From positions 1 to 49,768 of IMG/VR virus record IMGVR_UViG_3300010885_031374: a DNA stretch of 49,768 nucleotides. One strand, 5' to 3'. Within the stretch, counting starts at the first letter, position 1. Each line of letters opens with the position of its first letter. Positions 3,348 to 44,475 of this stretch are shown piece after piece. Made by a program: the position numbers and the translations under genes. Origin of the DNA: a virus. The notes below the pieces were generated by a model. The model saw only the letters and a program-made list of their open reading frames with translations. It searched no databases and was not told where the DNA came from.

Positions 3348-3965
3348 TTATCGCGCCATTCCCATTAACAGGCAAATTGTTGACCCCGGCACCCCTAGCC
3401 CGATGGCTAGTCCACCCCCTGCCGTCGCTCTGGCGATACCGACTAATCTGCCGTTTGCGTCTATAACCCCTCCGCCGCTCATCCCCGGCGCGAACGTAAT
3501 ATCATATGGCTGAACGTAGCCTAATATTGATTGCTTAGCTATAGCACCACTAATGCGACCAGTGAAAGCCTGGAACGTCAAGTCGAGGGGTGAGCCATAG
3601 GTAGTGATAATGTCGCCCACCTTGGGGTCGCGGCACTCGATCTGCCGAACCGCGATACCGTCACCGGCAACGTGCAACAGTGCAACGTCGGCATCCTGGT
3701 TCGCCCACATTATTTCTGGGGAAAGGATGCGGCCATCGTCCGTCTTGACGAGGATCGTGGAAGCCTTGTCTGCCCCAATCACATGCTGAGCGGTTATGAT
3801 ATAGCCGTTGCCGATATGAACGCCGCTGCCGTGGCCTGTTGAGGTTTGAATGTATAGAGCGGCGCCCGAAATGTTTGGGCGGGCTGCGGATAGATTGAGG
3901 ACAAAGACGCCAAACGCAAAGACGAGAGAGCCGAGGAACAGGACAAGCGCGCCTTTGGTTGTCAT
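3348..3965 (-). CDS. Membrane-anchored trypsin-like (HtrA-type) serine protease
   Basis: A 205-residue protein with an N-terminal hydrophobic helix (about 5-26) preceded by a basic start, so the catalytic domain should face the periplasm. The trypsin-like triad is visible: His61 in ITAQHV, Asp93 in DADVALL and Ser163 in PGMSGGG. GSGVHIGNGYIITAQHV is typical of HtrA/DegP-type domains. No PDZ domain follows, so it is a minimal protease. It lies in a run of exported and membrane proteins next to the lysis genes. Processing of an envelope or virion protein is inferred. Confidence 0.85.
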   Translation of the reverse strand: MTTKGALVLFLGSLVFAFGVFVLNLSAARPNISGAALYIQTSTGHGSGVHIGNGYIITAQHVIGADKASTILVKTDDGRILSPEIMWANQDADVALLHVAGDGIAVRQIECRDPKVGDIITTYGSPLDLTFQAFTGRISGAIAKQSILGYVQPYDITFAPGMSGGGVIDANGRLVGIARATAGGGLAIGLGVPGSTICLLMGMAR

Positions 3966-18848: not shown

Positions 18849-19267
18849 GTAATCCTCTGCTCTGACTTAAGAAGCCCGTAAATCACCGCATCCTTGCCCG
18901 GTCCGAAGCCTTCCCTAGCCTTGCCCTCAAGGACAAAGCCTAGCCCCTCTAGAAATGTCCGTGTCGTCTTGTTGTTCTTCCGCGTGATCGCCGTAATGCG
19001 ATTGCATTTGAGCTGATCGAACGCATACCCGAACACGGTGCGAATAACCCGGCGCGAAATCCAATTGTGGCCCGCTGCCCAGATGCGAATATCGCCGCCA
19101 CCGGGACACGGGCTGTAGTCCGTAAATAATGCGCCCCCGACTAGGCGACCGTCCCGCATAAACCCGATAGCCTCATAGCCGCCGGGGAGATCCGTGACTT
19201 CCGGCAATCGTTCCAACATCCAAAGCCCGACATATTCGCGCTGACCGGCTAGGATTTCGAGAGGCAT
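18845..19267 (-). CDS. GNAT family N-acetyltransferase
   Basis: A 140-residue protein from MPLEILAGQREYVGLWM, starting with a TAATG overlap on the upstream gene. GYEAIGFMRDGRLVGGALFTDY, then RRVIRTVFGYAFDQL, then CNRITAITRKNNKTTRTFLE and GLGFVLEG fit the GNAT fold, including the acetyl-CoA-binding helix and the last beta strand typical of RimJ-like enzymes. Phages of alphaproteobacteria often carry such a gene among the structural genes; the substrate may be a virion or host protein. The start eight codons upstream is less likely. Confidence 0.8.
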   Translation of the reverse strand: MPLEILAGQREYVGLWMLERLPEVTDLPGGYEAIGFMRDGRLVGGALFTDYSPCPGGGDIRIWAAGHNWISRRVIRTVFGYAFDQLKCNRITAITRKNNKTTRTFLEGLGFVLEGKAREGFGPGKDAVIYGLLKSEQRIT

Positions 19268-21057
19268 TATTGGGCCGCCAGAGGTTTCCAAGTGCCATCT
19301 CTAGCTAAATACTCGACGCCCTTAACTGGGCTGGTCGAAAATATGTCGCCAGTTCCGCTTTCTGTCTTGAATGAAGGGGACCGCTTTGATCTCAGGAGAA
19401 CCGGCTGACCATCTTCCGGGGCAAAACTCGCCGCTGACGATGGCCTGGTCGTCCAGTAAGACCGCTTTTCTCTAGCACCATCGGGCCAAACCGACTGGTC
19501 AGTCCCGAAAGACGGGCCATGCGCCCTTACAGCCCCGCTTTCCGAGATACTTTGGGCGCGTTCAGAGTTGGTGGCGTGGTAAACATACACAGGATCAGGT
19601 TCAGGAGGGCGTCTGGTGAAATCCATAAAGTCATCACGGGGAGGAGCCCCTCCGCCCATCGGAGCCTCGCCAGCGAGCGATTCGGCTAGGCTGGGGACAA
19701 TGGGCCTGTCTATGGGCAGCGATGCCTGTGGGCCGCTATTGCCAAAGCGGACGATCTGCCGATCGCGGGGAACATCCTCGGTTGACCACGGCGGGGAGGC
19801 GCGGCGCTCCTCTGGGGTCATGTTCATGCGGGTTTGGACGTTGCGGGCTTCGGTTTCTCCGGAGAGGCGGCGGTATTGTCCAAACGGGCTGCGTTTTTCG
19901 TCCTCTATTTTCAGAAAGTTGACGGCGTCGTCAACGGACGAAAACCCGTATTTTTCAACGATAGGGGTAATCGTCTTGGGGTCGGCATATTTTATAGTTC
20001 CGACTACTTCCGAGGGGCGCATTGTCCCGCTTCCGGTGATGGCTTGGCTTAGCTCAAAGTTGAGATCGTTCGCCGACTTGTTAAACATCGGCCCGCTATT
20101 GAATTGCTTCGGACTTCCACCTGAGGCGAATCCCTCCTCTCTCTGTGCCGCGTGCTGAGCTTCGTGTAAAGTAATCCCATGCACGCCGGTTTCTCCGCTT
20201 AGCCCATCGGAAAGAGCCGAAATGCGAGCCGGCGTTCCGTCTATAGACAGTTGTTCGAAAGAGCCGCTATGGCCGGGATTAGGCAACCTCGTTACAGAGG
20301 CGTCTATCGCCCTAAGTTCCGGGTAGGCATCAAACAAATCCTTGTGCCACAACACGCCTGCCATTTTGCCTGTGCTTCTTCCATCGCTAGAGAGAAACTC
20401 GTCGGCTGACTTGCCCCCTATCTGGCTAGCATTATCCGGTATCTCAAACCGCCATTTGCCGTCCGCACCAACCCCCCAACCCGTCTCTTTCCATATCGCG
20501 TCGGGGTGAGCGCCCGCCGCCGTCATCTTCTCCGCCTTAGCGAGCGCCTCAAGGTCGGCCGTCTTAGCGAGCTTGCCGCCGAATATGCCCAGCCTCGGCG
20601 CGGCGAACTTGGTCGTAGCCATGCCGCCCCCCGCTAGGGCTGCTGCAAGGTCAACTAACTCCGCGTTGGCCTCCGGGCGGATTGAGCCGGTTTCCGGGTC
20701 CATGACTTTCCAGCCAGCGCCGGGATGGCCAAGCGCGCTTTCTACCGCGTCACCGAATAACCCGCCTGCGCCGGTCCATAGGCCCTTAGCCATAGTACCA
20801 ATGCCCTTAGCTATTTCACCAAGGCGGTGAGCCGCAATGGGCGGAACCATTTCAGCCGTCGTTAATGCCCGCTCATGCCACGGCATTTGATCGAGTGGCT
20901 TACCGCTGTATTGCCCGCGCACAAGAACGTCGGCAAGGTCTTGGACGCTTGGGCCGTAGTTAGCCATTGGGCCGGTGGGCTTAGGCTTTTGCTTGGGCTT
21001 TAATTGGCCCCAAATGTCTTGGCCGGCAGCAAGGGCATCGGAAAGGAAATCAGCCAT
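19267..21057 (-). CDS. Polyvalent virion protein: LPD23-like, zincin HEAQH and ART-like domains
   Basis: A 596-residue protein. The N-terminal third is helical with Gly/Ala-rich stretches. Around residues 185-210 GAHPDAIWKETGW and GADGKWRFEIPD match a large polyvalent-protein domain of the LPD23 type. It is followed by a zinc metallopeptidase-like segment with GITLHEAQHAAQ and EEGFASGGS, a HExxH motif plus a downstream Glu. The C-terminal 110 residues (VYVYHATNSERAQSI, SYWTTRPSSAASF, VKGVEYLARDGTW) resemble ADP-ribosyltransferase-like domains of polyvalent proteins. Such proteins are thought to enter the host with phage DNA and act on host targets. Substrate unknown. Confidence 0.75.
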   Translation of the reverse strand: MADFLSDALAAGQDIWGQLKPKQKPKPTGPMANYGPSVQDLADVLVRGQYSGKPLDQMPWHERALTTAEMVPPIAAHRLGEIAKGIGTMAKGLWTGAGGLFGDAVESALGHPGAGWKVMDPETGSIRPEANAELVDLAAALAGGGMATTKFAAPRLGIFGGKLAKTADLEALAKAEKMTAAGAHPDAIWKETGWGVGADGKWRFEIPDNASQIGGKSADEFLSSDGRSTGKMAGVLWHKDLFDAYPELRAIDASVTRLPNPGHSGSFEQLSIDGTPARISALSDGLSGETGVHGITLHEAQHAAQREEGFASGGSPKQFNSGPMFNKSANDLNFELSQAITGSGTMRPSEVVGTIKYADPKTITPIVEKYGFSSVDDAVNFLKIEDEKRSPFGQYRRLSGETEARNVQTRMNMTPEERRASPPWSTEDVPRDRQIVRFGNSGPQASLPIDRPIVPSLAESLAGEAPMGGGAPPRDDFMDFTRRPPEPDPVYVYHATNSERAQSISESGAVRAHGPSFGTDQSVWPDGAREKRSYWTTRPSSAASFAPEDGQPVLLRSKRSPSFKTESGTGDIFSTSPVKGVEYLARDGTWKPLAAQ

Positions 21058-21065
21058 TGAACCCC

Positions 21066-22541
21066 CTACCGTCGCGCTTGCTTAACCAGAACGTGGCTGC
21101 CCATCCACTCCATTGCCGACACTAAGCCGGACATCTCAAGCGCGATGCCGATTGACCGTCCCAGGCCGTAGGTGGCGAACCACTGGCCGTTGTATTGGTT
21201 GCTCGCGCTCCATGAGGAGCCCCACGCATCGCCCCAGTTCGTTGTGGAATAGGACGCAGCGATAGAAACGGACGGAGTGGTGATCGAGCGTTGGATGTAG
21301 TCCGTATCGACGCCCCAGCGGCCTGTCACTGTGCCGTCAACAGCCATGTCAAATCTAATCGCGTCCGCTTCAATGCGCTGCCCACCTTGGCCCGAGGTCA
21401 CAAACGCGGTGCGGACCTTCATGGCGATTGAGGAGCCGGCGTCACTGGTGCCGGACATCTTGTATACTACGCCCGTTGCCCACGCCCCGATATAGAGGCT
21501 ATTGCCCCAAACGCACCATGCAGAGGCCGGAATGGAGCTCCATTGCGACCAAGCGCCTGTCTGTACGTTGTATACACGTTGCTTAGAGGTGGCCCCGTCC
21601 GAAGTCGGGATGTTGACGATAACCCGCCCCTCGTGGAAGGTCGGCGCCCAGCCCTCGAATGTGCCGTAGCTGTTGGCCTCCGATGTGATCGACGGCGCGA
21701 CCTTGCCGAAATTCCCAAGAGCGAGTTGGTCGAAGGCGGTCCCCTGAATGGCCGCAGCGAGAGGCACCAGGCCCATTCTGGTGACGACCGAAAGCTGCCC
21801 GCCGATCTTGACCAAGCACTGCCGGCCTATCGGGGGAGGCATTCGGTACGAGCCAACCAGACTAAACGTGGTGGCCGGGTCGCCGGAATAAATCAGCACC
21901 TCGCCGGTGGACATGACGAATGCGATATAGTCGTCAGGCCCGTTCCCGGCGTCCTGGGAGTGAGAGCCGATCGCCATGCACGTTCCGCCGCCCGCAATCT
22001 GCGAGAGCTGGAACTTGGTCAATGCGCCCGTGATGGCACCGACCGCCCCATACCAGACATCGGCGTTGTTGGTCTGGCAGAACCAAAGCCGCGAGCGGAC
22101 ATATGCGACATTGGCGAGTTGGGTCAGCGTAAGCCCGGTGAAGCCGGTCGCGGCTACCGTGGAGCCGTCATAGACCCACGGCGTGTCGGTGCCATTCACG
22201 CCAATCAGGCGGTTGTTATAATTGACCGTCTGAAAGCGGCTGTCGGAATAGCCAGCGGCGGAAAGAAGCGAGGCCGACGCCCCGGAATAGTCATAGATCG
22301 AGCCGCCCGCAACGCCGATCATTGTCGAGGCGGTCAGTCCGTTAAACGCGGCAAGGGTTTCAACCGTAGAAGCCGCCCCTCCGGTGGAATAGGAGGCAGT
22401 GCCCTTCCTGATCTGGACGACATTGCCTACCGGGTCGAGGTTCTCTAGGTGCCGCGATTCTGCGGGCTGAAGAACGGCCACGCCGTCGCGCGTGTTCTCG
22501 CCCATATACGGCGCTGGAATGGGAACCGGCTGGGACGCCAT
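21066..22541 (-). CDS. P22 gp10-like packaged DNA stabilisation / tail hub protein
   Basis: A 491-residue beta-rich protein. Repeated blade-like units (YNNRLIGVNGTDTPWVYDG, YVRSRLWFCQTNNADVWYG, DYIAFVMSTGEVLIYSGDP) with aromatic and Gly-Asp turns give a propeller-like pattern. It follows the gp4-like adaptor gene with a one-base overlap, as gp10 follows gp4 in P22-like phages. The assignment uses order and pattern, not strict identity. It would close the portal channel and hold the tail spike or fibre. Confidence 0.65.
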   Translation of the reverse strand: MASQPVPIPAPYMGENTRDGVAVLQPAESRHLENLDPVGNVVQIRKGTASYSTGGAASTVETLAAFNGLTASTMIGVAGGSIYDYSGASASLLSAAGYSDSRFQTVNYNNRLIGVNGTDTPWVYDGSTVAATGFTGLTLTQLANVAYVRSRLWFCQTNNADVWYGAVGAITGALTKFQLSQIAGGGTCMAIGSHSQDAGNGPDDYIAFVMSTGEVLIYSGDPATTFSLVGSYRMPPPIGRQCLVKIGGQLSVVTRMGLVPLAAAIQGTAFDQLALGNFGKVAPSITSEANSYGTFEGWAPTFHEGRVIVNIPTSDGATSKQRVYNVQTGAWSQWSSIPASAWCVWGNSLYIGAWATGVVYKMSGTSDAGSSIAMKVRTAFVTSGQGGQRIEADAIRFDMAVDGTVTGRWGVDTDYIQRSITTPSVSIAASYSTTNWGDAWGSSWSASNQYNGQWFATYGLGRSIGIALEMSGLVSAMEWMGSHVLVKQARR

Positions 22542-23230
22542 TAGCCGAAGCCCGTATAAGGTAGATTGCCCTCTCGGCTGAACCGATGACGATGAGGCGA
22601 ACCAAACCGGATTGCATCCCTAGCGCCGTCCTTGGACAGGATAGCATCGCGACGCTCGATCGCCTCTTGTTTTTCGTTGGCGAAATCCATTCCCTTGGCT
22701 TGGAGATAGCGCCAGCGGAGATCGATTGTCAGGAGGTCATCGTCCAACAGCGGAACGTCCGCATCGTCGGTGTAGGCTGCCTTGCCGCTGATCCAGTATT
22801 TGGAATAATACTGATAGGCGATTGTCTCCACGGCGGTAGGCGTGGGCCAAATCTCGAACAAGTCCGCCGCCACCCTGAAATACTTCCACGCTGCAACCCA
22901 CGCGACAGAGGACGACCTGAGCGCCTCGAATTTCTGGGGAGATACCGGCCCCTCAATCTCCCAGTAGTTTGTGCGGTCCCAGAACGTGATATTCGCGAAC
23001 GATTTGAACGCGGTCGGCAGCGCATAGGTGGCCGTGGAGGCGACCGTCGCAAAGGTGTGTGTGGCCAACAGCACTTGCCACTTGTGATCGAACGCCAGCG
23101 TCTTGCCGGACCTTTGAGCCAAGGCAAGAAGCTGCACGGCAATGGGATCGGTATTGCCGATAATCGACGAGGGGACGTTGTAGTCCCCGATTTCACGGAG
23201 GGCCGCTTGGCAAATTGTGAGCAAACTCAT
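22541..23230 (-). CDS. Head-to-tail adaptor (P22 gp4 / T7 gp11-like)
   Basis: A 229-residue protein starting MSLLTICQAALREIG, a typical N terminus of the podoviral adaptor family. A central KYFRVAADLFEIWPTP and IAYQYYSKYWISG, then LLDDDLLTIDLRWRYLQAKG, match phage adaptor proteins that bind below the portal. It is one gene upstream of the gp10-like protein. The overlap with the next start codon is one base. Confidence 0.7.
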   Translation of the reverse strand: MSLLTICQAALREIGDYNVPSSIIGNTDPIAVQLLALAQRSGKTLAFDHKWQVLLATHTFATVASTATYALPTAFKSFANITFWDRTNYWEIEGPVSPQKFEALRSSSVAWVAAWKYFRVAADLFEIWPTPTAVETIAYQYYSKYWISGKAAYTDDADVPLLDDDLLTIDLRWRYLQAKGMDFANEKQEAIERRDAILSKDGARDAIRFGSPHRHRFSREGNLPYTGFG

Positions 23231-23246: not shown

Positions 23247-23783
23247 TTAGGCGGCGGCAGTTGCTTGGACGACCTTGGGAGGGCGGCCACGGCGCTTGAT
23301 TGGTTCGGATATAGGCGCGGATGCGGCGATTGCCGCCGCAAGAGCCGAGGCTTTTTTCTCGGCAAGGATTTCAATTGCCTTCTTGCGGAGGGTAATCATT
23401 CCAAAGCCGAGATTGCGGCAGCCCTCGTCGGAGAGAAGCGCCATTTGTTCGACGCTCTCAATTCCGCTGAGATTGAACCGGGTAATCTCGTTCTCGCTAA
23501 GGCCAAGAACTTCCAACCCGATCCCTTCAGCTTTGGGAGCCGATCCCTTAAAAGCCGCCCAAGCGTCTGGGAATCGCTCGATATGCTGGTTCTGCTCGCC
23601 TGGGCGCATTTTGCGGCATCCAACCTCATTGCCGTTTATCGAGCGTTCATAGAGGACGGTAAACCGCTTGTAGATTTTCTCGTCGGCCGCCCGTGAGGCT
23701 GCTAAATCCTCAACGTCTAGAAAATCGAATTTTCCAAGCACCGATCTATCGTTGGCCGATGGGTACCACTTACCTTCAGACAT
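23247..23783 (-). CDS. Structural-region protein with HhH-like core and AT-hook tail
   Basis: A 178-residue protein. The first half contains VLYERSINGNEVGCRKM; the middle has a helix-hairpin-helix-like stretch (FNLSGIESVEQMALLSD); and the C terminus has an Ala-rich helix and KRRGRPPK, an AT-hook-like basic motif. It is between the adaptor and a small structural protein. A DNA-contacting head-completion protein is possible. No family named. Confidence 0.6.
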   Translation of the reverse strand: MSEGKWYPSANDRSVLGKFDFLDVEDLAASRAADEKIYKRFTVLYERSINGNEVGCRKMRPGEQNQHIERFPDAWAAFKGSAPKAEGIGLEVLGLSENEITRFNLSGIESVEQMALLSDEGCRNLGFGMITLRKKAIEILAEKKASALAAAIAASAPISEPIKRRGRPPKVVQATAAA

Positions 23784-23797
23784 AAACGCTCCTGGGG

Positions 23798-24142
23798 TTA
23801 CGTCGTCACCACATTGATTGCGGTGGACGACAAAAAGAGGAATATCGCGGCCCGCCCAGCCGGGAGATTCAGCGCAAGGTTGGCGGCTTGGCCGTTGAAA
23901 GCCGAGCCCACGGGCGGATAGACCAACAAGCTCGTGCCCGTGGCGGCAGAGGTATGATTGCCGACCGAGCGCATTTGGAACGCATTGCCGGTGGCCAGAA
24001 TAACCCCTTGCCCTGCGGTTACGGTGGTCACAGAAACATTGTCCGCCGTGCAGAGGGTGGCGGTGGCTTGCGTGGTGCCAGCCGAGGAAAGCCCAGTGGC
24101 GACATCGCCAACAATTGCTACGGCGGATTGCTGAATTGGCAT
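23798..24142 (-). CDS. Small structural protein (decoration/stabiliser-like)
   Basis: A 114-residue protein read from MPIQQSAVAIVGDVA; the in-frame extension upstream overlaps the glycosyltransferase end and is unlikely. The sequence is Thr/Ala/Val-rich with no strongly charged segment and looks beta-rich, as do small head decoration proteins. It has one base between it and the upstream gene. No family recognised. Confidence 0.55.
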   Translation of the reverse strand: MPIQQSAVAIVGDVATGLSSAGTTQATATLCTADNVSVTTVTAGQGVILATGNAFQMRSVGNHTSAATGTSLLVYPPVGSAFNGQAANLALNLPAGRAAIFLFLSSTAINVVTT

Positions 24143-24143
24143 C

Positions 24144-24794
24144 TTAGGTTTCCTTGTCCCAAAGCTGTTGTGCCCAATCCACGCCTGAAGCGTGAGGGCG
24201 AGGAAGGCCGTGAAAGAGCAACACCCGGCAACCAACGGGAAGCCGGTTGATCGGCCGGGCGTCTTTCTTGAAAGAGCAAAACTGGCGGGGGAATAAGTCC
24301 TGCCACAAATCGACCTTGAGGCCGCCCATCATTGCCTCGATCCAGCGTTGATCGCCGTTGCGATCAAACATTGGACAATTGGCCTGAACCCATTTGGTCC
24401 AGATATGGTCTAGGGTTCCCGCCTCCCACGCCATCACCGAGGAGCCGAAATGCTCCTGAAAATAAACGTCTTGCAAGATAGCGAACGGCCCGCGATAGGC
24501 CGCAATGTCATCAATGTTTCCAGTGATAATCGTATCAAGGTCAATGAATAGAACCCTCTCGCCAGGATCAAACGCCCCCGGCTTGAAAAGCTCTAACTTG
24601 TGCCACCAGCTCTGCGGGCCCTCCTGGGCCTTTATGGCGTCAACCCCCCTGGGAAGAGTGCTTGTGTCGTCTGTCAGGCAAACGCCTCTCCACGGGGTCG
24701 TGAGGTTCTTTGCAATGCCGTCATAGAGCTTGGCGAGATATTCGGCCCCGCGCCCGCAATAGTTTCCGGTCTGCACCGTTGCAATGGTCAGCAT
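24144..24794 (-). CDS. Glycosyltransferase, GT8-like
   Basis: A 216-residue protein from MLTIATVQTGNYCGRGAEYL. The motif VLFIDLDTIITGNID carries the DxD metal-binding pair of GT-A glycosyltransferases. FKPGAFDPGERV before it and a later CRVLLFHGLPRPH match the glycosyltransferase 8-like family, which uses nucleotide sugars. It overlaps the DUF115-FkbM gene by seven bases and so is translated with it. The target may be a virion protein, a host glycan or DNA; the sequence does not decide. Confidence 0.8.
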   Translation of the reverse strand: MLTIATVQTGNYCGRGAEYLAKLYDGIAKNLTTPWRGVCLTDDTSTLPRGVDAIKAQEGPQSWWHKLELFKPGAFDPGERVLFIDLDTIITGNIDDIAAYRGPFAILQDVYFQEHFGSSVMAWEAGTLDHIWTKWVQANCPMFDRNGDQRWIEAMMGGLKVDLWQDLFPRQFCSFKKDARPINRLPVGCRVLLFHGLPRPHASGVDWAQQLWDKET

Positions 24795-26233
24795 GGCAGG
24801 AATAGACAATCATTGGCGATTTTGAGGACGGCTTTATACCCGTGGTCTTCAAGCCACATTCTAGCCCCGCCTGGGTTTAGCCCATGCTTTTCCGGCAGAG
24901 AGTTTTCCTCAATAATAATCGCCGGCCTAAAACGGTTTATCGTGTCAGTGCCGCCGATTAGGGCCAACTCCTCGTAGCCCTCAATATCAAGCCAGATCAG
25001 ATCGCAGGCGTCTAATTTTAGATCGTCGATCCGGCGCATTGGAACGTCGCCCTCGCCGCTTATTCTAATGGCCCCTGCATTGTCGGGTTCGGCCTGAATC
25101 ATGCCGACCGTATCGATCCGATCACCTAAAGCCGCATGGTATGCCGCGACATTCCCAATATTCTTGTCAATGTTCTTCGACAGGCAGATATAATTCTGCA
25201 TGTCCGGTTCGAACGTGTGAACGTGGTTGAAATACTGGGCAAGGTGAGCGGGATAAACCCCCACATTCCCCCCTGCTTGGATTGCCAATCTGCGGTTATT
25301 AACATGGGCCATGAACTGATCCATGCTCTTGACTTCTTCGCGAATGGCCAGCGCGCCCATTACGTCGCCAGCGGGCCAGATAAAATCATCCGTCAACATC
25401 TTGGGCTTTTCCCTGCCCTCATGCTTGCCGGGATTGCGGCGCTTCCATTCAGCGAACTTCGATTGCAATAATCCATCGCCGTGAACCGTGATCGAAATCG
25501 GCTCAACGTCGGGATGCTGTAGGCGCCCCATCCAGCCTAGAAAATCGGATACTTGGCCAATGAAATTAATCCGCGTTTGATAGCCGTCAAACGTGATCCA
25601 ATCCGTCTTGGCGTCCTGATGGTCGGGGTAGGCGTGAGACGCCTTGCCTCGCTTGGGGTCGATCCTGAATGAGGAATCTAGCCCATGAAGATGAAAGTTT
25701 CTAAAGCCGCAAGTGTATCCGAGGGTCAGCCAGCGAAGGCCCATGGTGGACCCGCCGCCGATCGTCAGAGATTCCGGTTCCAGCTCGTCCAGGATAGCCT
25801 CGCCGCCGGGGATCGAGGAAACATTCCAGCGGACCACATAACAGCCGGCGTTGATTAGCTTGTCATAGACGCTAGGGTGAACGGTCGAGGCGAGGAAATA
25901 GTTGACGCTCTTTCTCGGCTCAATAATGTCAACCATGTGCGGGCTGGGGTCGCATACCCCGCATAGGTCAGGAACCACGTCACGGTCCAATAGGAACGAC
26001 AGAGAGCCATTCACGGCTGCGATCTGTCCGGTTAGCTCCTTATAGGTATCTTCAAGGCTAGGCCCGCCCCCGGCTACGCTAAGCTCCAAAGCGTGGGGTT
26101 GGCACCTTGTAACGACCGGCAAGTTCCTTGCGATAGACGAGCGCATGTTTTCGTGCAGCTGCTCTGGTTTAATCGCTGGAATAAGGGTGAATTTGAAATT
26201 CAGAATTTCGTCCGCTGGCTCAACTGTTTGCAC
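24788..26233 (-). CDS. DUF115 (MAF-like) - FkbM methyltransferase fusion
   Basis: A 481-residue protein starting at GTG 26233 with AAGGTGG upstream. The N-terminal half matches DUF115/MAF-type proteins: VAGGGPSLEDTYKEL, VVPDLCGVCDPSP, TIGGGSTMGLRWLTLGYTCG and FHLHGLDSSF. The C-terminal half is an FkbM-type SAM methyltransferase: AIQAGGNVGVYPAHLAQYF, HTFEPDMQNYICLSKN, AAYHAALGDR, DLIWLDIEGYEELALIGG. DUF115 enzymes act in flagellin glycosylation and sugar or pterin transfer, while FkbM enzymes O-methylate sugars. With the next glycosyltransferase, it may add and cap a glycan. Both domains are usually separate proteins. Confidence 0.8.
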   Translation of the reverse strand: MQTVEPADEILNFKFTLIPAIKPEQLHENMRSSIARNLPVVTRCQPHALELSVAGGGPSLEDTYKELTGQIAAVNGSLSFLLDRDVVPDLCGVCDPSPHMVDIIEPRKSVNYFLASTVHPSVYDKLINAGCYVVRWNVSSIPGGEAILDELEPESLTIGGGSTMGLRWLTLGYTCGFRNFHLHGLDSSFRIDPKRGKASHAYPDHQDAKTDWITFDGYQTRINFIGQVSDFLGWMGRLQHPDVEPISITVHGDGLLQSKFAEWKRRNPGKHEGREKPKMLTDDFIWPAGDVMGALAIREEVKSMDQFMAHVNNRRLAIQAGGNVGVYPAHLAQYFNHVHTFEPDMQNYICLSKNIDKNIGNVAAYHAALGDRIDTVGMIQAEPDNAGAIRISGEGDVPMRRIDDLKLDACDLIWLDIEGYEELALIGGTDTINRFRPAIIIEENSLPEKHGLNPGGARMWLEDHGYKAVLKIANDCLFLPC

Positions 26234-26255: not shown

Positions 26256-26283
26256 TGGGGGCGGGAGTTTATTCCCGCCCCCA
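26256..26283 (-). terminator. GC-rich hairpin after the capsid genes
   Basis: Eleven-base perfect arms (26256-26266 and 26273-26283) around a six-base loop, followed on the minus strand by ATTTCT. It lies between the decoration gene and the glycan-enzyme genes, where partial termination would keep capsid transcripts high. The T run is short, so it may act as an attenuator. Confidence 0.65.
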
Positions 26284-26289
26284 GAGTTG

Positions 26290-26793
26290 TTAGTTCGACA
26301 GAACGACGCGGTTAAGCGTGAACGGCCGATTGATGTTGTAGGTATCGAGGAAGGTACCCACGACATGCACAGTGGTCGTCTTGCGGGCATTAAGCACCGA
26401 ATCGCCAATCACTGACGCATCATCCACCGAACCGGCAGTGGCGGTGAGCCACAGGAAGCCGGTAGAGTGAGTGATCGAGGTCAGGCCGAGAGCCTGAGCC
26501 ACGCCGTTAATCTGATACCAGCCATAGGAAGTCGTGGTGGTGTTGGTGGACATGGAAACGGCAAGCGGATAGTTGCCGTTAGCGACCGCCAGCACCGACG
26601 TGCCCAGCGCGGGAGAGTAGCCTACCCAAGAGCCGACTGCCGTAGAGGCAACGCCCTTAAGATAGATAAACTCGCCTTCGCCATAGGTGGGGTCGGCCGC
26701 TTTGATGATCGTGCCAAGCGGTTGGTTCTGCGTGGTGCTCTTCTGGTTGATCGCCTGAGCACCCACCACAGGGCTAGTGAGATTATAAGCCAT
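26290..26793 (-). CDS. Head decoration / capsid-stabilising protein
   Basis: A 167-residue protein directly downstream of the major capsid gene. It starts MAYNLTSPVVGAQAI, and includes GEGEFIYLKGVAS, GWYQINGVAQALG and FLWLTATAGSVDDA. These strand-rich segments with Gly turns are typical of small decoration proteins that follow the major capsid gene in many phages (gpD-like position). The assignment is by position and composition. Confidence 0.6.
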   Translation of the reverse strand: MAYNLTSPVVGAQAINQKSTTQNQPLGTIIKAADPTYGEGEFIYLKGVASTAVGSWVGYSPALGTSVLAVANGNYPLAVSMSTNTTTTSYGWYQINGVAQALGLTSITHSTGFLWLTATAGSVDDASVIGDSVLNARKTTTVHVVGTFLDTYNINRPFTLNRVVLSN

Positions 26794-26817: not shown

Positions 26818-27789
26818 CTACGCGCAGACGACGCCCTGCAGGATGCGGTTGCTAACTGTCATGTTTCCCTTCCAGTAGATCGGGACGACAGTGCCGTCTT
26901 GGTTCACAGACGACTTCTCGTCGAGGGTGACGAAGTTGAAGTCGCTATGGGGACGGAAGTGCAAGTAGTCGCTATTCAACGCGTACATGTGGTTTGCCGG
27001 CGCGGAGGAGTCGAAAAACACGTCCGCAACGCCGCCCCAAAACTTCAGGGAGGCAAAGCCAGCACCGGCCGTATCGGCGCTCTGGAAGCGCTGATTAGCC
27101 TGGAGGCTTTCCAGGTAATACGAGAAGTAGGTCGTATCACCCACGAACATATCCGGCCTATCGCGGCCACGAGTGGCGTTGATATAGACCGTGTTCATGG
27201 CGTGCTGGATCGTGGTCGAAGACGCCGTGACCGAGTTCGTGGAAAAATCGTAGAACTGATTTCTCCACCAGGTCTGAGTGTCCTGCGCAATGCCGCCAGG
27301 TGAGCTGGAAGCGGTCGGCAAGTCGGCGACAAGAAGCTGAAGGCCGCCAATCGTCTTGGAACTAAACTCAGTGCCAAGCGCAAACAGGCCGTCGGCAACG
27401 GTGTTCTGCATGGTCTTTTCCGCAACTGAAATGCGGGACTTGACCAGGTTAAACACAGCTTCCTTAGTGCCGCTGTTCTGGGCTTTCTCAAGTCCAGAGA
27501 TAACAACATTACAGTTTAACTCTTTCCAGCTGAACGAAGCCGAAGTCAAAACGTCTGACTGCGACACGTCCAAAACTTCGAGGCCGGAATACCATTTTAC
27601 GGTCGAGTTCTGGGCATACATAAGGTTTTCAAGCAACGTGGCGCCGCCAGGAGCGGGGTCCGCATTGCCCTTCGACTTCATGCGCTCAAGCAAGGGGTTG
27701 TGAGTGAGGACGTTATCGCTCATCTGCGAGCGATAGTTATTAAGCGTGGTGGTGACGATTTCGGTATAGGTACTCGACGGGATCGCCAT
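26818..27789 (-). CDS. Major capsid protein
   Basis: A 323-residue protein with a strong SD (AAAGGACGG). The N-terminal helix (STYTEIVTTTLNNYRSQM) with DNVLTHNPLLERMKSKG, then the extended loop (FSWKELNCNVVISGLEKAQ), then DGLFALGTEFSSKTIGGL match major capsid proteins of HK97 fold found with a separate scaffold. It follows the scaffolding gene. Length is normal for a shell protein without a fused delta domain. Confidence 0.8.
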   Translation of the reverse strand: MAIPSSTYTEIVTTTLNNYRSQMSDNVLTHNPLLERMKSKGNADPAPGGATLLENLMYAQNSTVKWYSGLEVLDVSQSDVLTSASFSWKELNCNVVISGLEKAQNSGTKEAVFNLVKSRISVAEKTMQNTVADGLFALGTEFSSKTIGGLQLLVADLPTASSSPGGIAQDTQTWWRNQFYDFSTNSVTASSTTIQHAMNTVYINATRGRDRPDMFVGDTTYFSYYLESLQANQRFQSADTAGAGFASLKFWGGVADVFFDSSAPANHMYALNSDYLHFRPHSDFNFVTLDEKSSVNQDGTVVPIYWKGNMTVSNRILQGVVCA

Positions 27790-29365: not shown

Positions 29366-29406
29366 TATAATAATCCCTATATTTGAGACGACATGAGGAC
29401 CGCACG

Positions 29407-30084
29407 ATGTTGACGGCAGCCCGACTTAAGGAACTTTTGTCCTACGATATCGACACTGGCGTTTTCACTTGCCTCGTATCGAGGGCGCCAGCGAGGGCCG
29501 GGCAGCCTACTGGGTGCCTCAACACGCTAGGGTACACGGTCATTGGTGTAGACCGAAGGCTGTACTTGGCTCATCGCCTTGCCTGGCTGTATGTGCACGG
29601 CAATTGGCCCAATGGAGTAATTGACCACTTAAACGGCAAAAGGTCAGACAACCGACTAGCTAACCTTCAGGATGGGACCCAGAAAGACAACGTTCAGAAT
29701 CCAAACAACCGCCCCAAGGAGAACCAACACGGCGCTACTGGGGTTTCCCGAGACCGCAGGACTGGGCGATGGGCGGCGACCATCCGCCGGGATGGCAAGA
29801 GATACTTCTTGGGGTCTTTTGGAAGCATGCAAGAGGCTGGAGCGGCGTTCGGTGAGGCCGACGCAAAGCTAAGGGCCGGTATAGCCTTACCCCGTACTGA
29901 TGCTACATTGCGCCGGCGTAGCGATAACATAAGCGGGTTCAGGGGCGTCTATTGGGATAAGCAAAGGAAGCGATGGCGGGCCCGGATAACGGTCAGCGGA
30001 AAGAAAACCCACATTGGCCTTTTTGATACGCCAGAATCTGCCCATGCCGCCTATTGCGAGGCCCGAAAGCAGTTGCTCGGTTAA
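29407..30084 (+). CDS. HNH endonuclease with two AP2 DNA-binding domains
   Basis: A 225-residue protein from MLTAARLKELLSYD, with GAGGA eight bases upstream; an ATG at 29383 is in frame but weaker. The HNH core has LAHRLAWLYVHGNWP, IDHLNGKRSDNRLANL and DGTQKDNVQN. Two AP2-type domains follow: GVSRDRRTGRWAATI with YFLGSFGSMQEAG, and GVYWDKQRKRWRARITV with HIGLFDTPESAH. HNH-AP2 proteins are mobile homing endonucleases. It is antisense to the late operon and ends four bases into the convergent gene. Confidence 0.85.
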   Translation: MLTAARLKELLSYDIDTGVFTCLVSRAPARAGQPTGCLNTLGYTVIGVDRRLYLAHRLAWLYVHGNWPNGVIDHLNGKRSDNRLANLQDGTQKDNVQNPNNRPKENQHGATGVSRDRRTGRWAATIRRDGKRYFLGSFGSMQEAGAAFGEADAKLRAGIALPRTDATLRRRSDNISGFRGVYWDKQRKRWRARITVSGKKTHIGLFDTPESAHAAYCEARKQLLG

Positions 30085-33386: not shown

Positions 33387-36086
33387 TTATTGCATCCCCA
33401 CCAGCTTGCCGTCCGGCCCGCGCACAACGCTATGGATCACGCCGGCCTTGCGGATGCCGGCCGCCTTGCCTTGGCCGTCGCGAATGATCTCAACCGGCGC
33501 GTCAGCGGCCGCAGCCATTGAATTAACCGCGCCGGCCACCTGTTGAACCTCACCGTCGATCTTGGCGACTTCCTGAGCCACCATCTCAATGCGCTGGCCT
33601 AGCTGCATCTGAGCGTCAAGCATGGCCTGCTGGCCCTGAATGCTCATGGCGGCGAACTCTTGCACCGTCTGGCCGATCTGCTCGATAGCCGAGGGGCCAC
33701 CCAATTCACCAGGTTGCATTCCCTCGGTAGCGAGTTGCTTATTATGCCCAGCAATAGACAGGCCCATATCCATTTGCTTGGCCTTGTCGGCTTGCTGTAT
33801 CTTCATCTGCTCAACCGCCATAGTGTCGGAATGAGCGCCCTTCATATGTTCCAGCTTGGCGGCCTCGGTGGCTGCTTGCGCCTGCGCTTTTTCGCGTTCG
33901 ATTTGGAGGCGAGCGGCCTTGTCTTGAGCGTCAAGCTGGATTGATTGCTGCTTGTGGCCGGTGTCGGCTTGCAGCATTTGTTGTTTATGGGCCATTTCGG
34001 CCTGATGCTTCTGCGCCTCAAACGCCAGACGCGCCTGTTCGGCTTCGGCCTTGCCCGCATTGGGGTCGGGCGGAGGCTGGGGCTTGGGAGGCGGGTGCTT
34101 GGACAATTCATCGAACGCAGTCTCGACGCCCTCTTCCAGCGCCTTGCCGGGCCTGAATGAGCGCATCGTGAACAGAGTGACTTCCTTGATGAGCGGCAAC
34201 ATGGCGGGCGCGGACATCATCGCCTGATAGGCCCCGGCTAGCGCCTTCTCCATTGCGCCGACGAACTCTAGGCGCGCCGCCTTCTCGGCTTCCGCATCCA
34301 CCGCCATCGTGGAATCGGTCTCAATATCAACCCGATAGCCGCGCAGCTTGTCCGAGCGTAAAATCTCAATAACCTGTTCCCAGGTCGGGCCATGGGCGCG
34401 CTTAAGCTCCTCGGCATTGTCCTCTGGGGCAGTCGGCAGCGGCCCTGTGGGGGGCGCGCTCGATAGGCGCATGTTCCCGCCAGCCACGGGCAGGATCGAG
34501 CGGGAATCGCTTGTGGCGCCCTGTGGGCCGCCTTGCATAGCGTTTGGGCCGCCTTGCATAGCGTTCTGATCTTGTCCGCCATCAGCAGGCATACCCGGCG
34601 CCATATCGCCGCCAGCGGGCATCTGTGGGGAAGCGGGCGAGGTGGCCAGCTTGACCTTGAGCGCCTGCTGTTCCTCCATCGTCGGCAAATCAATGCCGGT
34701 TATGTCGGCCAATGTCTCCTGCGTGAAATGCTCGCAGATGATCTCGGCCATGATCCGATAAAGATCGCGGATGAATTTCTGCACATGCGCTTGACGGCGC
34801 TGCATACGCATCGAGCCGAACTGCGCCTTGATCTGCTGCGCGCCCTTGGTTTCGGTCGGGTCGGTAGACCCTCGCATGATGTCGGAGATGCCAGTGACGT
34901 TATAGATTTCCTGCACCAACGCCTGCCGCTGGGCCTGAAGCTGGGCAATGATCGGCGGAATACGGTCGATCGGCACAAAGCCTATGGCCGCGTCAATGCC
35001 GCCCTTCTCTCGCAATTGAGCGAAATTTTCATGCGGAAGAAGTGTCCCGTCTTCTGCGTTCTCCAGCCCCTTGAGGGACGATCCGTCCTTGTCAATCGTC
35101 GCATCGTAAATGCCGCGCCAGCGCAACTGCTCCAACAGCCGCGCAATGCGGGTCGTGATGTTGTCCAGCTCGCTCGCCTGATCCTGATATTGCAGGAACT
35201 CCGGGATCGGCTGCATTGTGTCGGTCGTAGTGACCGAATAAAGAGGCTCTGGGCACGGAAAGAAATTCTCTAGCCCCAGAGGGTCTTTGTCGGCTTGGAG
35301 GATATTCTCATACCCTCGCCCGACGTAGAGCCTTTCTTTGCCCTTCCGTGCCCAGATTTCCCAAATCTCTACGAAATTGCCGTCCTGGCTATCGTCGTCC
35401 AGGCTCTTTAGCCCGTAGCTGGTGATCGCCTCCTCAGCGTCGGGGAACCTGGCTTCGAATTCGTCCTTCGGCATCGCATGGCGGCGGGCAACCCATGGAA
35501 TGTCCTTCCAAATCCGGGCCAGTCCGTGAGTGAAGTCCTCCCAATAGACGTATTCCACGCAAAGCTTCTGCCCGGTGATCTGCGCCTCGGGCGGCTCGGT
35601 CGCGTCGTCGTCTGTTGGCTCGTCGTCGTCTTCCGAGGGCGGCTCGCTTTCGCCGATCTCCTCGATCTGGGGATCATAGGAAACCCAAGCGATGCCGCGT
35701 CCCGGCAGCAGCATATCGGCGACGGCCGCATCTAACGCCGCGTCAACGTCATAGGCATCGATGCAGTAGCTCTCCGAACGCTCGATTATCTCGGCAGCCA
35801 CTCTTGCGGTGCCGTTGTCCCTCGAGGCGTCCGCCCAGCGCCTGCGAACGTCGGGCTTGGGAGTGCGCGCGTAAAGCCCAGACTTGAGAATTTCCGTATT
35901 CGACCAGAGAATATTCACCTTGCGCTGAACGGAGCTTTCCGACCGCTCGTCGCGGTAGCGCCGGATGACTTTCTTGCCCTTCTCACGCCACTTTTCCTCG
36001 CGCTTGAGGGCCTTGTCGATCTCGCTTAGCCACGGCTGCGCCGCGCGCGTCCCGTCCAGCGATGGGGCGTCGTCGGCTTCTGCCAT
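33387..36086 (-). CDS. Portal protein (large podoviral type)
   Basis: An 899-residue protein downstream of the terminase genes. The N-terminal part has KREEKWREKGKKVIRRYRD, NILWSNTEILKSGLYAR and WVSYDPQIEEIGE; the middle has YNVTGISDIMRGST, a signature of the P22-type portal family, then EIICEHFTQETLADITG. From about residue 650 the sequence becomes a Gln/Ala/Lys-rich coiled coil, resembling the P22 portal barrel. It includes a short tandem of NAMQGGP (about 540). SD AAGGAT precedes the start. It is longer than P22 gp1. Confidence 0.85.
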   Translation of the reverse strand: MAEADDAPSLDGTRAAQPWLSEIDKALKREEKWREKGKKVIRRYRDERSESSVQRKVNILWSNTEILKSGLYARTPKPDVRRRWADASRDNGTARVAAEIIERSESYCIDAYDVDAALDAAVADMLLPGRGIAWVSYDPQIEEIGESEPPSEDDDEPTDDDATEPPEAQITGQKLCVEYVYWEDFTHGLARIWKDIPWVARRHAMPKDEFEARFPDAEEAITSYGLKSLDDDSQDGNFVEIWEIWARKGKERLYVGRGYENILQADKDPLGLENFFPCPEPLYSVTTTDTMQPIPEFLQYQDQASELDNITTRIARLLEQLRWRGIYDATIDKDGSSLKGLENAEDGTLLPHENFAQLREKGGIDAAIGFVPIDRIPPIIAQLQAQRQALVQEIYNVTGISDIMRGSTDPTETKGAQQIKAQFGSMRMQRRQAHVQKFIRDLYRIMAEIICEHFTQETLADITGIDLPTMEEQQALKVKLATSPASPQMPAGGDMAPGMPADGGQDQNAMQGGPNAMQGGPQGATSDSRSILPVAGGNMRLSSAPPTGPLPTAPEDNAEELKRAHGPTWEQVIEILRSDKLRGYRVDIETDSTMAVDAEAEKAARLEFVGAMEKALAGAYQAMMSAPAMLPLIKEVTLFTMRSFRPGKALEEGVETAFDELSKHPPPKPQPPPDPNAGKAEAEQARLAFEAQKHQAEMAHKQQMLQADTGHKQQSIQLDAQDKAARLQIEREKAQAQAATEAAKLEHMKGAHSDTMAVEQMKIQQADKAKQMDMGLSIAGHNKQLATEGMQPGELGGPSAIEQIGQTVQEFAAMSIQGQQAMLDAQMQLGQRIEMVAQEVAKIDGEVQQVAGAVNSMAAAADAPVEIIRDGQGKAAGIRKAGVIHSVVRGPDGKLVGMQ

Positions 36087-42501: not shown

Positions 42502-43255
42502 TTTCGGCATTTCTCCTTTGCCTAAGTGCTGACGAAATCGAAGCGAAGCTCTCTGGTTTTTGCTGCCCTTGCCTTGGCCCATCCCTTGAGGCGCGGCGCA
42601 CCCAGTTCCGCCAAGTCGCCTCCCAAGAAACCTTACGATGCCCCCCACTCTCCGCCCAATCCCGTATGATTTCCAGTTGCCTACCACATTCCGCCGCGCC
42701 AAGCAACTCGCTAGCGTAGCCCATTCCGGCATCGGTTGGCGTCCACCCTGTCGGCATGACGGCCGCCTGAGCTTTGGGGATAGGTTTTTTCTTGGGAAAA
42801 TTGGGATCGATCGGCGCATCGCCGTCGCCCCCCGTCACTTCGGCGGGGGATCCTTCCTTTCTTTCTTCTTCTGTATCTGTATCTGTATCTGTATCTGTAT
42901 AGCTGTGGTTTCGCTCAGCGTCCGTTGAGCGAACGCTGAGCGAACGCTGAGCGGACGCTCTGGCTTTGGTTGATTTGTCGAAAACACGCGCTAATTCTGC
43001 ATCAATTCGGCTGTGGGTCCACTTGCCGCCAGCCTCGCTAAAGAACTCCTCTATCTCAGCCTTAACCGCAGGCCAGAGTTCCGGCGGCACCCTAGCGATG
43101 CGGCAAAGCCTAGTGTCGTCGGACGGGAGTGGCTTGCCGCGCTGCCAGTAGTTTAGGATCAGCATGAGATAGGCGCCATGCTCAATCGCCGTTAGGTGGG
43201 CCGTGTCGGCCAGGTAATCGGCAACGTAAAGCGGCATGTAGGGTAGGGCGGCCAT
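42419..43255 (-). CDS. DUF1376-type replication initiator-like protein
   Basis: A 278-residue protein. The N-terminal domain matches DUF1376: YMPLYVADYLADTAHLTAIE, HGAYLMLILNYWQRGKPLP, CRIARVPPELWP. This is followed by a repetitive linker of five Thr-Asp pairs and a basic C-terminal half ending in DNA-binding-like GGHRKVSWEATWRNWVRRA. DUF1376 proteins are often found in replication-initiator positions of phages. The linker DNA contains a repeat cluster that resembles an origin. This mirrors lambda O, where the origin lies within the initiator gene. Confidence 0.75.
   Translation of the reverse strand: MAALPYMPLYVADYLADTAHLTAIEHGAYLMLILNYWQRGKPLPSDDTRLCRIARVPPELWPAVKAEIEEFFSEAGGKWTHSRIDAELARVFDKSTKARASAQRSLSVRSTDAERNHSYTDTDTDTDTEEERKEGSPAEVTGGDGDAPIDPNFPKKKPIPKAQAAVMPTGWTPTDAGMGYASELLGAAECGRQLEIIRDWAESGGHRKVSWEATWRNWVRRASRDGPRQGQQKPESFASISSALRQRRNAENVSNLNPGHEGHQLIEGHCAPDDFSPR
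42871..42958. repeat. Iteron-like repeats and CTGTAT tract: putative replication origin
   Basis: Three contiguous 11-bp direct repeats TGAGCGAACGC, the third with one change (42926-42936, 42937-42947, 42948-42958), follow an inverted TGAGCG half-site at 42912-42917. Next to them are five CTGTAT units (42871-42900) and a polypyrimidine stretch (42851-42870). Tandem repeats beside a simple AT-containing tract, inside an initiator-like gene, match the layout of iteron origins. Confidence 0.6.
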
Positions 43256-44349
43256 TACACCGTCTCCAATTTCGACACCAAGTCAATTCTAGTCCCGATC
43301 CACCGCATAACGTTCACGGCCATAGAGTTCCCAAGCGCCTTGTAGCGAGGCCCGTCTGATGCTTCCTTACCTCGATATGGAACATGCGTGTAGCCATCAG
43401 GGAACCCCTGTAGGCGCTCACATTCAGTCGGCGTTAGCCTACGAACCACAAATCCGCCCCTAATGTAGCTTTGCTGTTTCATGCCAGTCCGTGCCGCTAG
43501 GACACCAACGACATCCATCTCCCTAACCTCATCGCGTGAGTTTTGTGCGAAATACACGGAGGCATAAGTTTGCCTAGTTAGCGTTGGATGTACCCCTGTG
43601 GCGTCCGGTTTCTGCTGGCTCATATTTGCTTCAAACGCAATAAGTGTTTCGCTCTCTGCGTCCATCCTCACACCGTGAACGTTTAGAGACATACTCACAG
43701 GCTCACCACAGAATCCGCTATATTGGATAGCGCCAACAGTAAGGCTGTCGGCAACTCTTTCCCCCGTTTTGCGGCGCGGCGGAGAATGCCCCGACAGGCT
43801 TTCGCGCTCAAATAGTACCGCTGCGGAACGTCGCCAGCCTCCAAGATTTCCGACAACGAACACACGCCTTCGTCTTTGAGGGACAGCCCTTCCAAACCCG
43901 TCCACTCGCACAAACTGAGCGTCCAGCACTCTGTAGCAGACGCCATACCCGCATTCGACCAGCCCCCCGATGATGGAACCAAAGTCCCGTCCTCCTGCCG
44001 AGGACAAAACTCCGGGGACGTTCTCCCAAAGAACCCACTGGGGGCGATATTGGTCAGCGATAGCAAGAAAGGTGAGGGCGAGGTTCCCCCTTGGGTCATC
44101 CATGCCTTTTCTAAGTCCTGCGACTGAGAATGATTGGCAGGGGGTTCCTCCGACGAGAACATTGACGTTTGCATCTGGCCAGTCCTTGAATTTGGTCATA
44201 TCGCCAAGGTTTGGAGTGCTTGGATAATGGTGGGCAAGCACGGCGGACGGGAATTTCTCAATCTCACTAAAGCCAACAGGCTCCCATCCTAGCGGCTCCC
44301 AAGCCACAGATGCAGCCTCGATCCCAGAGCAAACAGATAGGTATTTCAT
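43255..44349 (-). CDS. DNA cytosine-5 methyltransferase
   Basis: A 364-residue protein from MKYLSVCSGIEAASVAWE, preceded by GGAGAGGGCC. Motifs in order: SAM-binding SGIEAAS (I), FSEIEKFPSAVL (II), VLVGGTPCQSFSVAG with catalytic Cys71 (IV), WENVPGVLSS (VI), QRRRRVFVVGN (VIII) and near the end RLTPTECERLQGFPDGY and GNSMAVNV (IX-X). The variable region lies between VIII and IX. No restriction partner is nearby, so it is an orphan enzyme. It may hide phage DNA from host nucleases or alter gene control. Confidence 0.93.
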   Translation of the reverse strand: MKYLSVCSGIEAASVAWEPLGWEPVGFSEIEKFPSAVLAHHYPSTPNLGDMTKFKDWPDANVNVLVGGTPCQSFSVAGLRKGMDDPRGNLALTFLAIADQYRPQWVLWENVPGVLSSAGGRDFGSIIGGLVECGYGVCYRVLDAQFVRVDGFGRAVPQRRRRVFVVGNLGGWRRSAAVLFERESLSGHSPPRRKTGERVADSLTVGAIQYSGFCGEPVSMSLNVHGVRMDAESETLIAFEANMSQQKPDATGVHPTLTRQTYASVYFAQNSRDEVREMDVVGVLAARTGMKQQSYIRGGFVVRRLTPTECERLQGFPDGYTHVPYRGKEASDGPRYKALGNSMAVNVMRWIGTRIDLVSKLETV

Positions 44350-44370
44350 GGCCCTCTCCGTTAAAATGCA

Positions 44371-44423
44371 GGCGGGGCAGCCTCCAGGGGAGGAGAGAAC
44401 CCGTCGGAGGCAGCACGCCCGCC
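44371..44423 (-). promoter_or_regulatory. Extended stem-loop in the methyltransferase leader
   Basis: Plus bases 44381-44385 (CCTCC) pair with 44406-44410 (GGAGG), and 44371-44378 pair with 44413-44423 except for a small bulge, giving a long GC-rich hairpin upstream of the methyltransferase SD. The 44350-44475 gap has no gene. It may act in translation control or as a terminator remnant. Confidence 0.45.
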
Positions 44424-44475
44424 CCGGCCGAAGTAGCAACAAATCAGCCGTTTGCTCGATTAACCTATAACACAA

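Follow-up and report, generated by a model that had tools for sequence, protein, structure and literature searches.

A Maf-like DUF115–FkbM fusion and an overlapping glycosyltransferase gene beside the capsid genes suggest methylated virion glycans in Mx8-type phages

To our knowledge, few tailed phages are reported to have glycosylated virion proteins. Here, we describe a conserved set of enzymes encoded beside the capsid genes of Mx8-type phages, which suggests, from sequence, that these phages attach a methylated sugar to their own particles. The set consists of a DUF115 domain of the Maf type, a glycosyltransferase (GT) and a methyltransferase, and we consider it probable that this module is a phage-encoded protein-glycosylation unit acting on a virion protein, with the FkbM methyltransferase O-methylating a sugar of the glycan. 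Computation establishes the three enzyme families, the retention of their catalytic motifs, a fixed location, repeated re-fusion and purifying selection in close relatives. If the reading is right, a widespread environmental phage group has a compact unit for flagellin-type glycosylation and methylation in a fixed place beside its capsid genes, and several natural fusion designs identify the partner enzymes.

The window, that is, the whole stretch of DNA analyzed, is a virus record of 49,768 bases whose structural genes are encoded on the minus strand. The features that matter here are as follows.

33387–36086, minus strand: portal
26818–27789, minus strand: major capsid protein (MCP) of the Mx8 type (phrog_9953, E 1.5e-87; tblastn matches to Mx8, ppBjS10J-1 and BUCT555), candidate acceptor
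26290–26793, minus strand: virion structural protein, probable decoration protein (phrog_29386, E 5.2e-24), candidate acceptor
26256–26283, minus strand: GC-rich hairpin with an 11-bp stem and without a T-tract, between the decoration gene and the module
24788–26233, minus strand: fusion of DUF115 (Maf-like) and FkbM, 481 aa (Pfam and NCBIfam matches, counterpart in the related locus L107)
25664–26089, minus strand: DUF115/PF01973 domain (Pfam stretch; the modelled domain extends to about 25436)
24791–25396, minus strand: FkbM methyltransferase half (motifs IQAGGNVGVY, TFEPD and LDIEG; profile match to 2py6)
24144–24794, minus strand: GT8/glycogenin-like glycosyltransferase, 216 aa from the ATG (phrog_1962, homologue alignment, glycogenin-1 profile match)
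24534–24542, minus strand: DLD (DxD) codons of the GT, residues 85–87, invariant in 22 homologues
23798–24142, minus strand: small protein, 114 aa, 23% Ser+Thr, candidate acceptor or structural protein
23247–23783, minus strand: P178, conserved gene directly before the adaptor (phrog_20268), found in most relatives
22541–23230, minus strand: SU10-type adaptor (PF24175, E 1.9e-15), downstream boundary of the module

The preliminary description of this DNA had placed the module between capsid/decoration genes and adaptor genes, after a hairpin, and had proposed a DUF115–FkbM fusion overlapped over seven bases by a DxD-type glycosyltransferase gene; each of these points held up. The PHROG and Pfam matches of the neighbors fix the position, and homologues of the decoration protein adjoin the MCP throughout the phage group. 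Folding of the 76-nt stretch that contains the hairpin, on the upstream side of the fusion, gives −29.9 kcal/mol (z −3.55); as it has no T-tract, the hairpin is absent from the output of the terminator scan. The fusion starts at a GTG preceded by AAGGTGG. The longest GT reading frame opens at a TTG at 24809, and the 7-nt overlap with the fusion results from a start at the ATG at 24794. One nucleotide past the GT stop, the gene of the small protein begins.

Both halves of the fusion match their family models above the Pfam gathering cut-offs, as the HMM check proposed in the preliminary description called for: PF01973 (MptE-like/DUF115) at residues 49–190 (E 2.1e-13, 50.8 bits, cut-off 34.6) and PF05050 (FkbM) at residues 335–467 (E 8.2e-15, 55.8 bits, cut-off 22.7). 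The NCBIfam model fkbM_fam (TIGR01444) also matches above its cut-off (E 4.7e-18). The FkbM half keeps the SAM-binding motifs of its family intact, and its profile matches the FkbM structure 2py6 (E 6.3e-10); what sets it apart from the usual FkbM family is its fusion to DUF115 and its linkage with phage head genes. The fusion does not stem from an assembly error, because L107 encodes the same one at 51% identity, with a GT gene that overlaps it by 4 nt.

The DUF115 half carries the database name MptE-like, and the reading that goes with this name, a pterin diphosphokinase or another enzyme of nucleotide metabolism in a small-molecule pathway with no link to a glycan, has to be weighed. AlphaFold2 applied to the whole fusion as a single sequence gave an unusable model (pLDDT 30); with an alignment of 26 homologues, residues 1–285 were modelled at pLDDT 87.1. 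In Foldseek searches, the best PDB match of this model is the Magnetospirillum Maf 5mu5 (E 4e-8, TMq 0.57), followed by archaeal HPPK/MptE, with 8sd5 in second place, and then by the human sialyltransferase ST8SiaIII. The second rank of an archaeal HPPK is what the pterin reading has in its favor besides the Pfam name. The sequence profile, however, matches Maf 5mu5 far better than MptE (E 6e-13 versus 9e-4) and along a longer part of the domain; the MptE match is confined to profile positions 30–108 and does not span the whole domain. In addition, PHROG profiles connect DUF115 homologues with alpha-2,3-sialyltransferase, and in three fusion types DUF115 is joined directly to glycosyltransferases. 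We thus reject the pterin-kinase reading, which we regard as highly improbable. Profile and predicted fold agree and point to a Maf-type glycosyltransferase, in keeping with the DUF115/MAF assignment made initially, and the name "pterin diphosphokinase" is probably misleading for this half. The same name is the only annotation of uncultured Caudovirales MptE-like proteins in BFVD (A0A6J7XC21, A0A6J5PVH5) that are close fold matches (TM 0.73–0.77), in contrast to the Maf reading given here; a long BFVD match, A0A6J7X5Q0, is named as a methyltransferase domain protein. Should the Maf reading be correct, this suggests that many phage proteins annotated as MptE-like pterin kinases are glycosyltransferases.

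How far does the likeness to Maf extend? Maf O-glycosylates Ser/Thr of flagellin, and its central domain (pfam01973) has a Cst-II-like fold (PMC11339370); glycosylation of flagellin by a Maf-type enzyme is reported to precede export (PMC4065374). The DUF115 half keeps the motifs GGGPSL, GGGSTMG, GLDSS and HAY and shares GPS, GxTV and GFRxxxLxGxD with 5mu5, its best match in both profile and fold. In contrast to Maf, it comprises about 260 aa and has neither of the extra N- and C-terminal domains, and the DUF115 domains of these phages are fused to FkbM or GT and adjoin capsid rather than flagellar genes. Only a central-type domain was found, without the full three-domain Maf architecture or a flagellar locus. 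The half thus appears, by sequence and model, to be like the Maf central domain, and we do not class it as a flagellar Maf.

The GT has no match in the Pfam search. It matches the PHROG glycosyltransferase family phrog_1962 (E 1.1e-36), its profile matches glycogenin-1 (GT8, E 1e-5) and its DLD motif is invariant in the alignment of 22 homologues, which bears out its description as a DxD-type enzyme. PmgQ of phage P1 and HdmD of P7 belong to the same PHROG family and are about 30% identical to the window GT over the whole length, PmgQ being a distant relative; our searches found no DUF115 or FkbM partner for either. In P1, pmgQ is non-essential and sits among other late genes (PMC10695390). 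Tetraselmis viridis virus S20 has FkbM and phrog_1962-type GT genes in one operon between head genes and later genes. Unlike the window, S20 has no detected DUF115, no Mx8-type capsid match and several further genes, one of them annotated as a glycosyl transferase.

Two MCP-seeded scans of viral contigs yielded 98 loci; after the named phages and the window had been added, 92 Mx8-type loci could be scored. The DUF115 module is present in 35 of these, and wherever both flanks are visible it lies between the MCP/decoration genes and the adaptor (35/35 carriers), so that the gene order which the preliminary description proposed to look for in related phages is indeed found. The named relatives Mx8, ppBjS10J-1, BUCT555, 45A6 and ctMlz233 lack the module. 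A scan of viral contigs seeded with the DUF115 domains of the window and of locus L089 gave 34 loci, 29 of them at the capsid–adaptor site, a count that is not independent since the seeds come from the same phage group and three loci are contigs already seen. Among the five off-site loci, L133 and L134 adjoin a terminase-like gene, L137 and L140 lie beside structural-looking proteins, and L139 is the remaining one. In L137 (7438–11943) and L140 (7266–12912), DUF115 and methyltransferase genes sit between long structural-looking proteins, outside an Mx8-type context. No loci were returned by a viral-contig scan that used only the window fusion as seed, and no relatives by a genome-contig scan with the GT~DUF115 alignment. 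The MCP scan of genome contigs found seven relatives, one of which (L145) has the module. The host is probably an alphaproteobacterium, because related capsids lie on one alphaproteobacterial and one Rhizobiales MAG contig.

Across the loci, the same activities are joined in different ways (a tilde marks one reading frame, a slash separate genes):

GT~DUF115 / FkbM: 21 loci
DUF115~class-I methyltransferase (MT): 12 loci
DUF115 / GT: 11 loci
DUF115, no partner detected: 7 loci
GT~DUF115: 5 loci
GT~DUF115~MT24: 4 loci
DUF115~GT: 3 loci
MT / DUF115: 3 loci
DUF115~FkbM / GT: window and L107
MT~DUF115: L093
MT24 / DUF115 / GT: L145, three overlapping genes on a contig binned to an alphaproteobacterial MAG

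The exchange of partners can be followed within single proteins. In the scan, the DUF115 domains of the window and L089 are 48% identical, and the match ends at about residue 258, past which the window continues as FkbM and L089 as a class-I methyltransferase. The strongest evidence for a single pathway is that the same activities have been fused repeatedly; the swapped fusions indicate, at the level of sequence, that the enzymes serve one glycan, a sugar of which is O-methylated. The pathway of glycan building and methylation initially proposed is well supported: dozens of relatives have the same three activities at this location, in several fusion permutations. Several loci have DUF115 plus GT only, with no methyltransferase detected. 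In close relatives, purifying selection acts on the module genes, with dN/dS of 0.05–0.12 in GT~DUF115 and FkbM genes. MCP and DUF115 divergence are correlated (r 0.63, 0/5000 permutations). The nearest DUF115 to that of the window is nevertheless found in L107 (59%), yet the L107 capsid is only 43% identical, so that transfer of modules between lineages also takes place at this site. The MCP tree requires at least four changes in presence of the module, which was thus gained or lost repeatedly.

This patchiness is also what would be expected of cargo (moron) genes, mutually unrelated products that happen to share a permissive site, and the DNA methyltransferase gene inside the L062 module fits such an account. 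The recurrence of the same three activities, re-fused together in several ways, and the strong purifying selection in close relatives argue against it, and we give it little weight. As to the site itself, BUCT555 has lysis genes (holin/endolysin) in the capsid–adaptor interval, which is therefore not reserved for virion modification, and the position of the module may reflect only a permissive, late-expressed site. The inserted gene in L062 (8089–8766) encodes an N6/N4 DNA methyltransferase and lies between GT~DUF115 and FkbM.

On the reading that we favor, a virion-glycosylation pathway, the Maf-like DUF115 and the GT8-like GT would build a short glycan in the cytoplasm; this would be placed during late infection on a virion protein, most likely the decoration or capsid protein, and the fused FkbM domain would O-methylate a sugar of that glycan. 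We infer a glycan common to all the enzymes, a virion acceptor, a sugar as the FkbM substrate and this order of action. A virion protein is the probable acceptor given the position of the module, the fold class and the precedent of glycosylated mycobacteriophages; a host surface protein or glycan would be a distinctly less probable one. Points against this reading are that the module is absent from over half of the relatives, so any virion modification would be dispensable for the capsid fold, that some loci have no detected methyltransferase, and that pmgQ, the distant P1 relative of the GT gene, is non-essential. Two more specific ideas on the acceptor were set aside. Enrichment of Ser/Thr in the decoration proteins of carriers is unconvincing, as carriers (20.6%) do not split cleanly from non-carriers (19.5% in marine and 14.7% in other non-carriers), and the small protein P121 is not specific to the module, with six of eight homologues in loci that have it and two in loci without it.

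Maf enzymes are familiar from flagellin glycosylation and FkbM enzymes from sugar methylation, which lends itself to the main rival explanation: in infected or lysogenic cells, the module might alter the host surface (flagellin, pilin or a surface glycan) so as to exclude superinfecting phages or mask receptors. The ability of the capsid–adaptor interval to hold non-structural genes is compatible with this, as is Citrobacter phage phiNP, where an overlapping pair of a sialyltransferase-like gene and a phrog_1962 GT lies outside the head genes. However, no flippase, polyprenol transferase, oligosaccharyltransferase or envelope-glycan gene was detected near the module, and the GT and DUF115 domains appear soluble, with no strong membrane segment. 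Hydropathy rises to 2.2 in some FkbM cores, a value common for buried strands. With neither strong membrane segments in the GT and DUF115 domains nor envelope-glycan genes detected nearby, direct glycosylation of a virion protein, with O-methylation of the sugar as the next step, offers the simplest explanation. The placement between decoration and adaptor genes is, moreover, constant across diverse relatives, and late expression, as judged from position, would leave little time to change the host surface. On balance, we hold modification of the host surface to be rather unlikely.

In mycobacteriophages of the Che8 type, the major capsid proteins are glycosylated, which is credited to phage-encoded glycosyltransferases (Freeman 2023, as cited in PMC11256854). 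The present phages likewise encode glycosyltransferases, here in the structural operon and with a putative virion acceptor; in contrast, the related mycobacteriophage Maravista has its glycosyltransferases near the genome end (PMC11256854). The literature on mycobacteriophage glycosylation that we examined does not mention a Maf-like/FkbM fusion, and we found no description of a DUF115 or MptE system in a phage in the open-access literature. Within the open-access literature searched, a Maf-type enzyme in a phage variant of virion glycosylation is thus unreported. Tentatively, and with less assurance than for the general reading, we propose that Mx8-type phages O-glycosylate their own capsid or decoration proteins by a Maf-type system, in which a glycan built by the GT8-like enzyme would be capped by interchangeable methyltransferases (FkbM, Methyltransf_23/25, Methyltransf_24), the methyltransferase being the variable part that is swapped as a switch of surface chemistry at a fixed locus. 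The natural domain pairs would be a ready set for probing the acceptor, the sugar and the role of methylation.

Finally, several other genes were observed. In cultured Citrobacter phage phiNP (locus L141, 6451–8288), the related enzyme pair consists of an alpha-2,3-sialyltransferase gene overlapping the phrog_1962 GT, upstream of the terminase, and a Manatee Spring phage (L003, 6007–7072) has overlapping mannosyltransferase and FkbM genes, also upstream of the terminase. Within the window, the tail gene region encodes a 596-aa protein (19267–21057, minus strand) with an LPD23 polyvalent-protein domain (PF18838, E 1.6e-22), whose C-terminal end matches phrog_3147 and by eye resembles ADP-ribosyltransferase-like domains. 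An HNH plus AP2 homing-endonuclease-like gene (29383–30084) lies upstream of the scaffold gene and is encoded on the plus strand, opposite the structural genes. A trypsin-like peptidase gene (3348–3965, minus strand; PF13365, E 4e-20) is found outside the head genes, and a C5-cytosine DNA methyltransferase gene occupies 43255–44475 on the minus strand (PF00145, E 1.3e-49).
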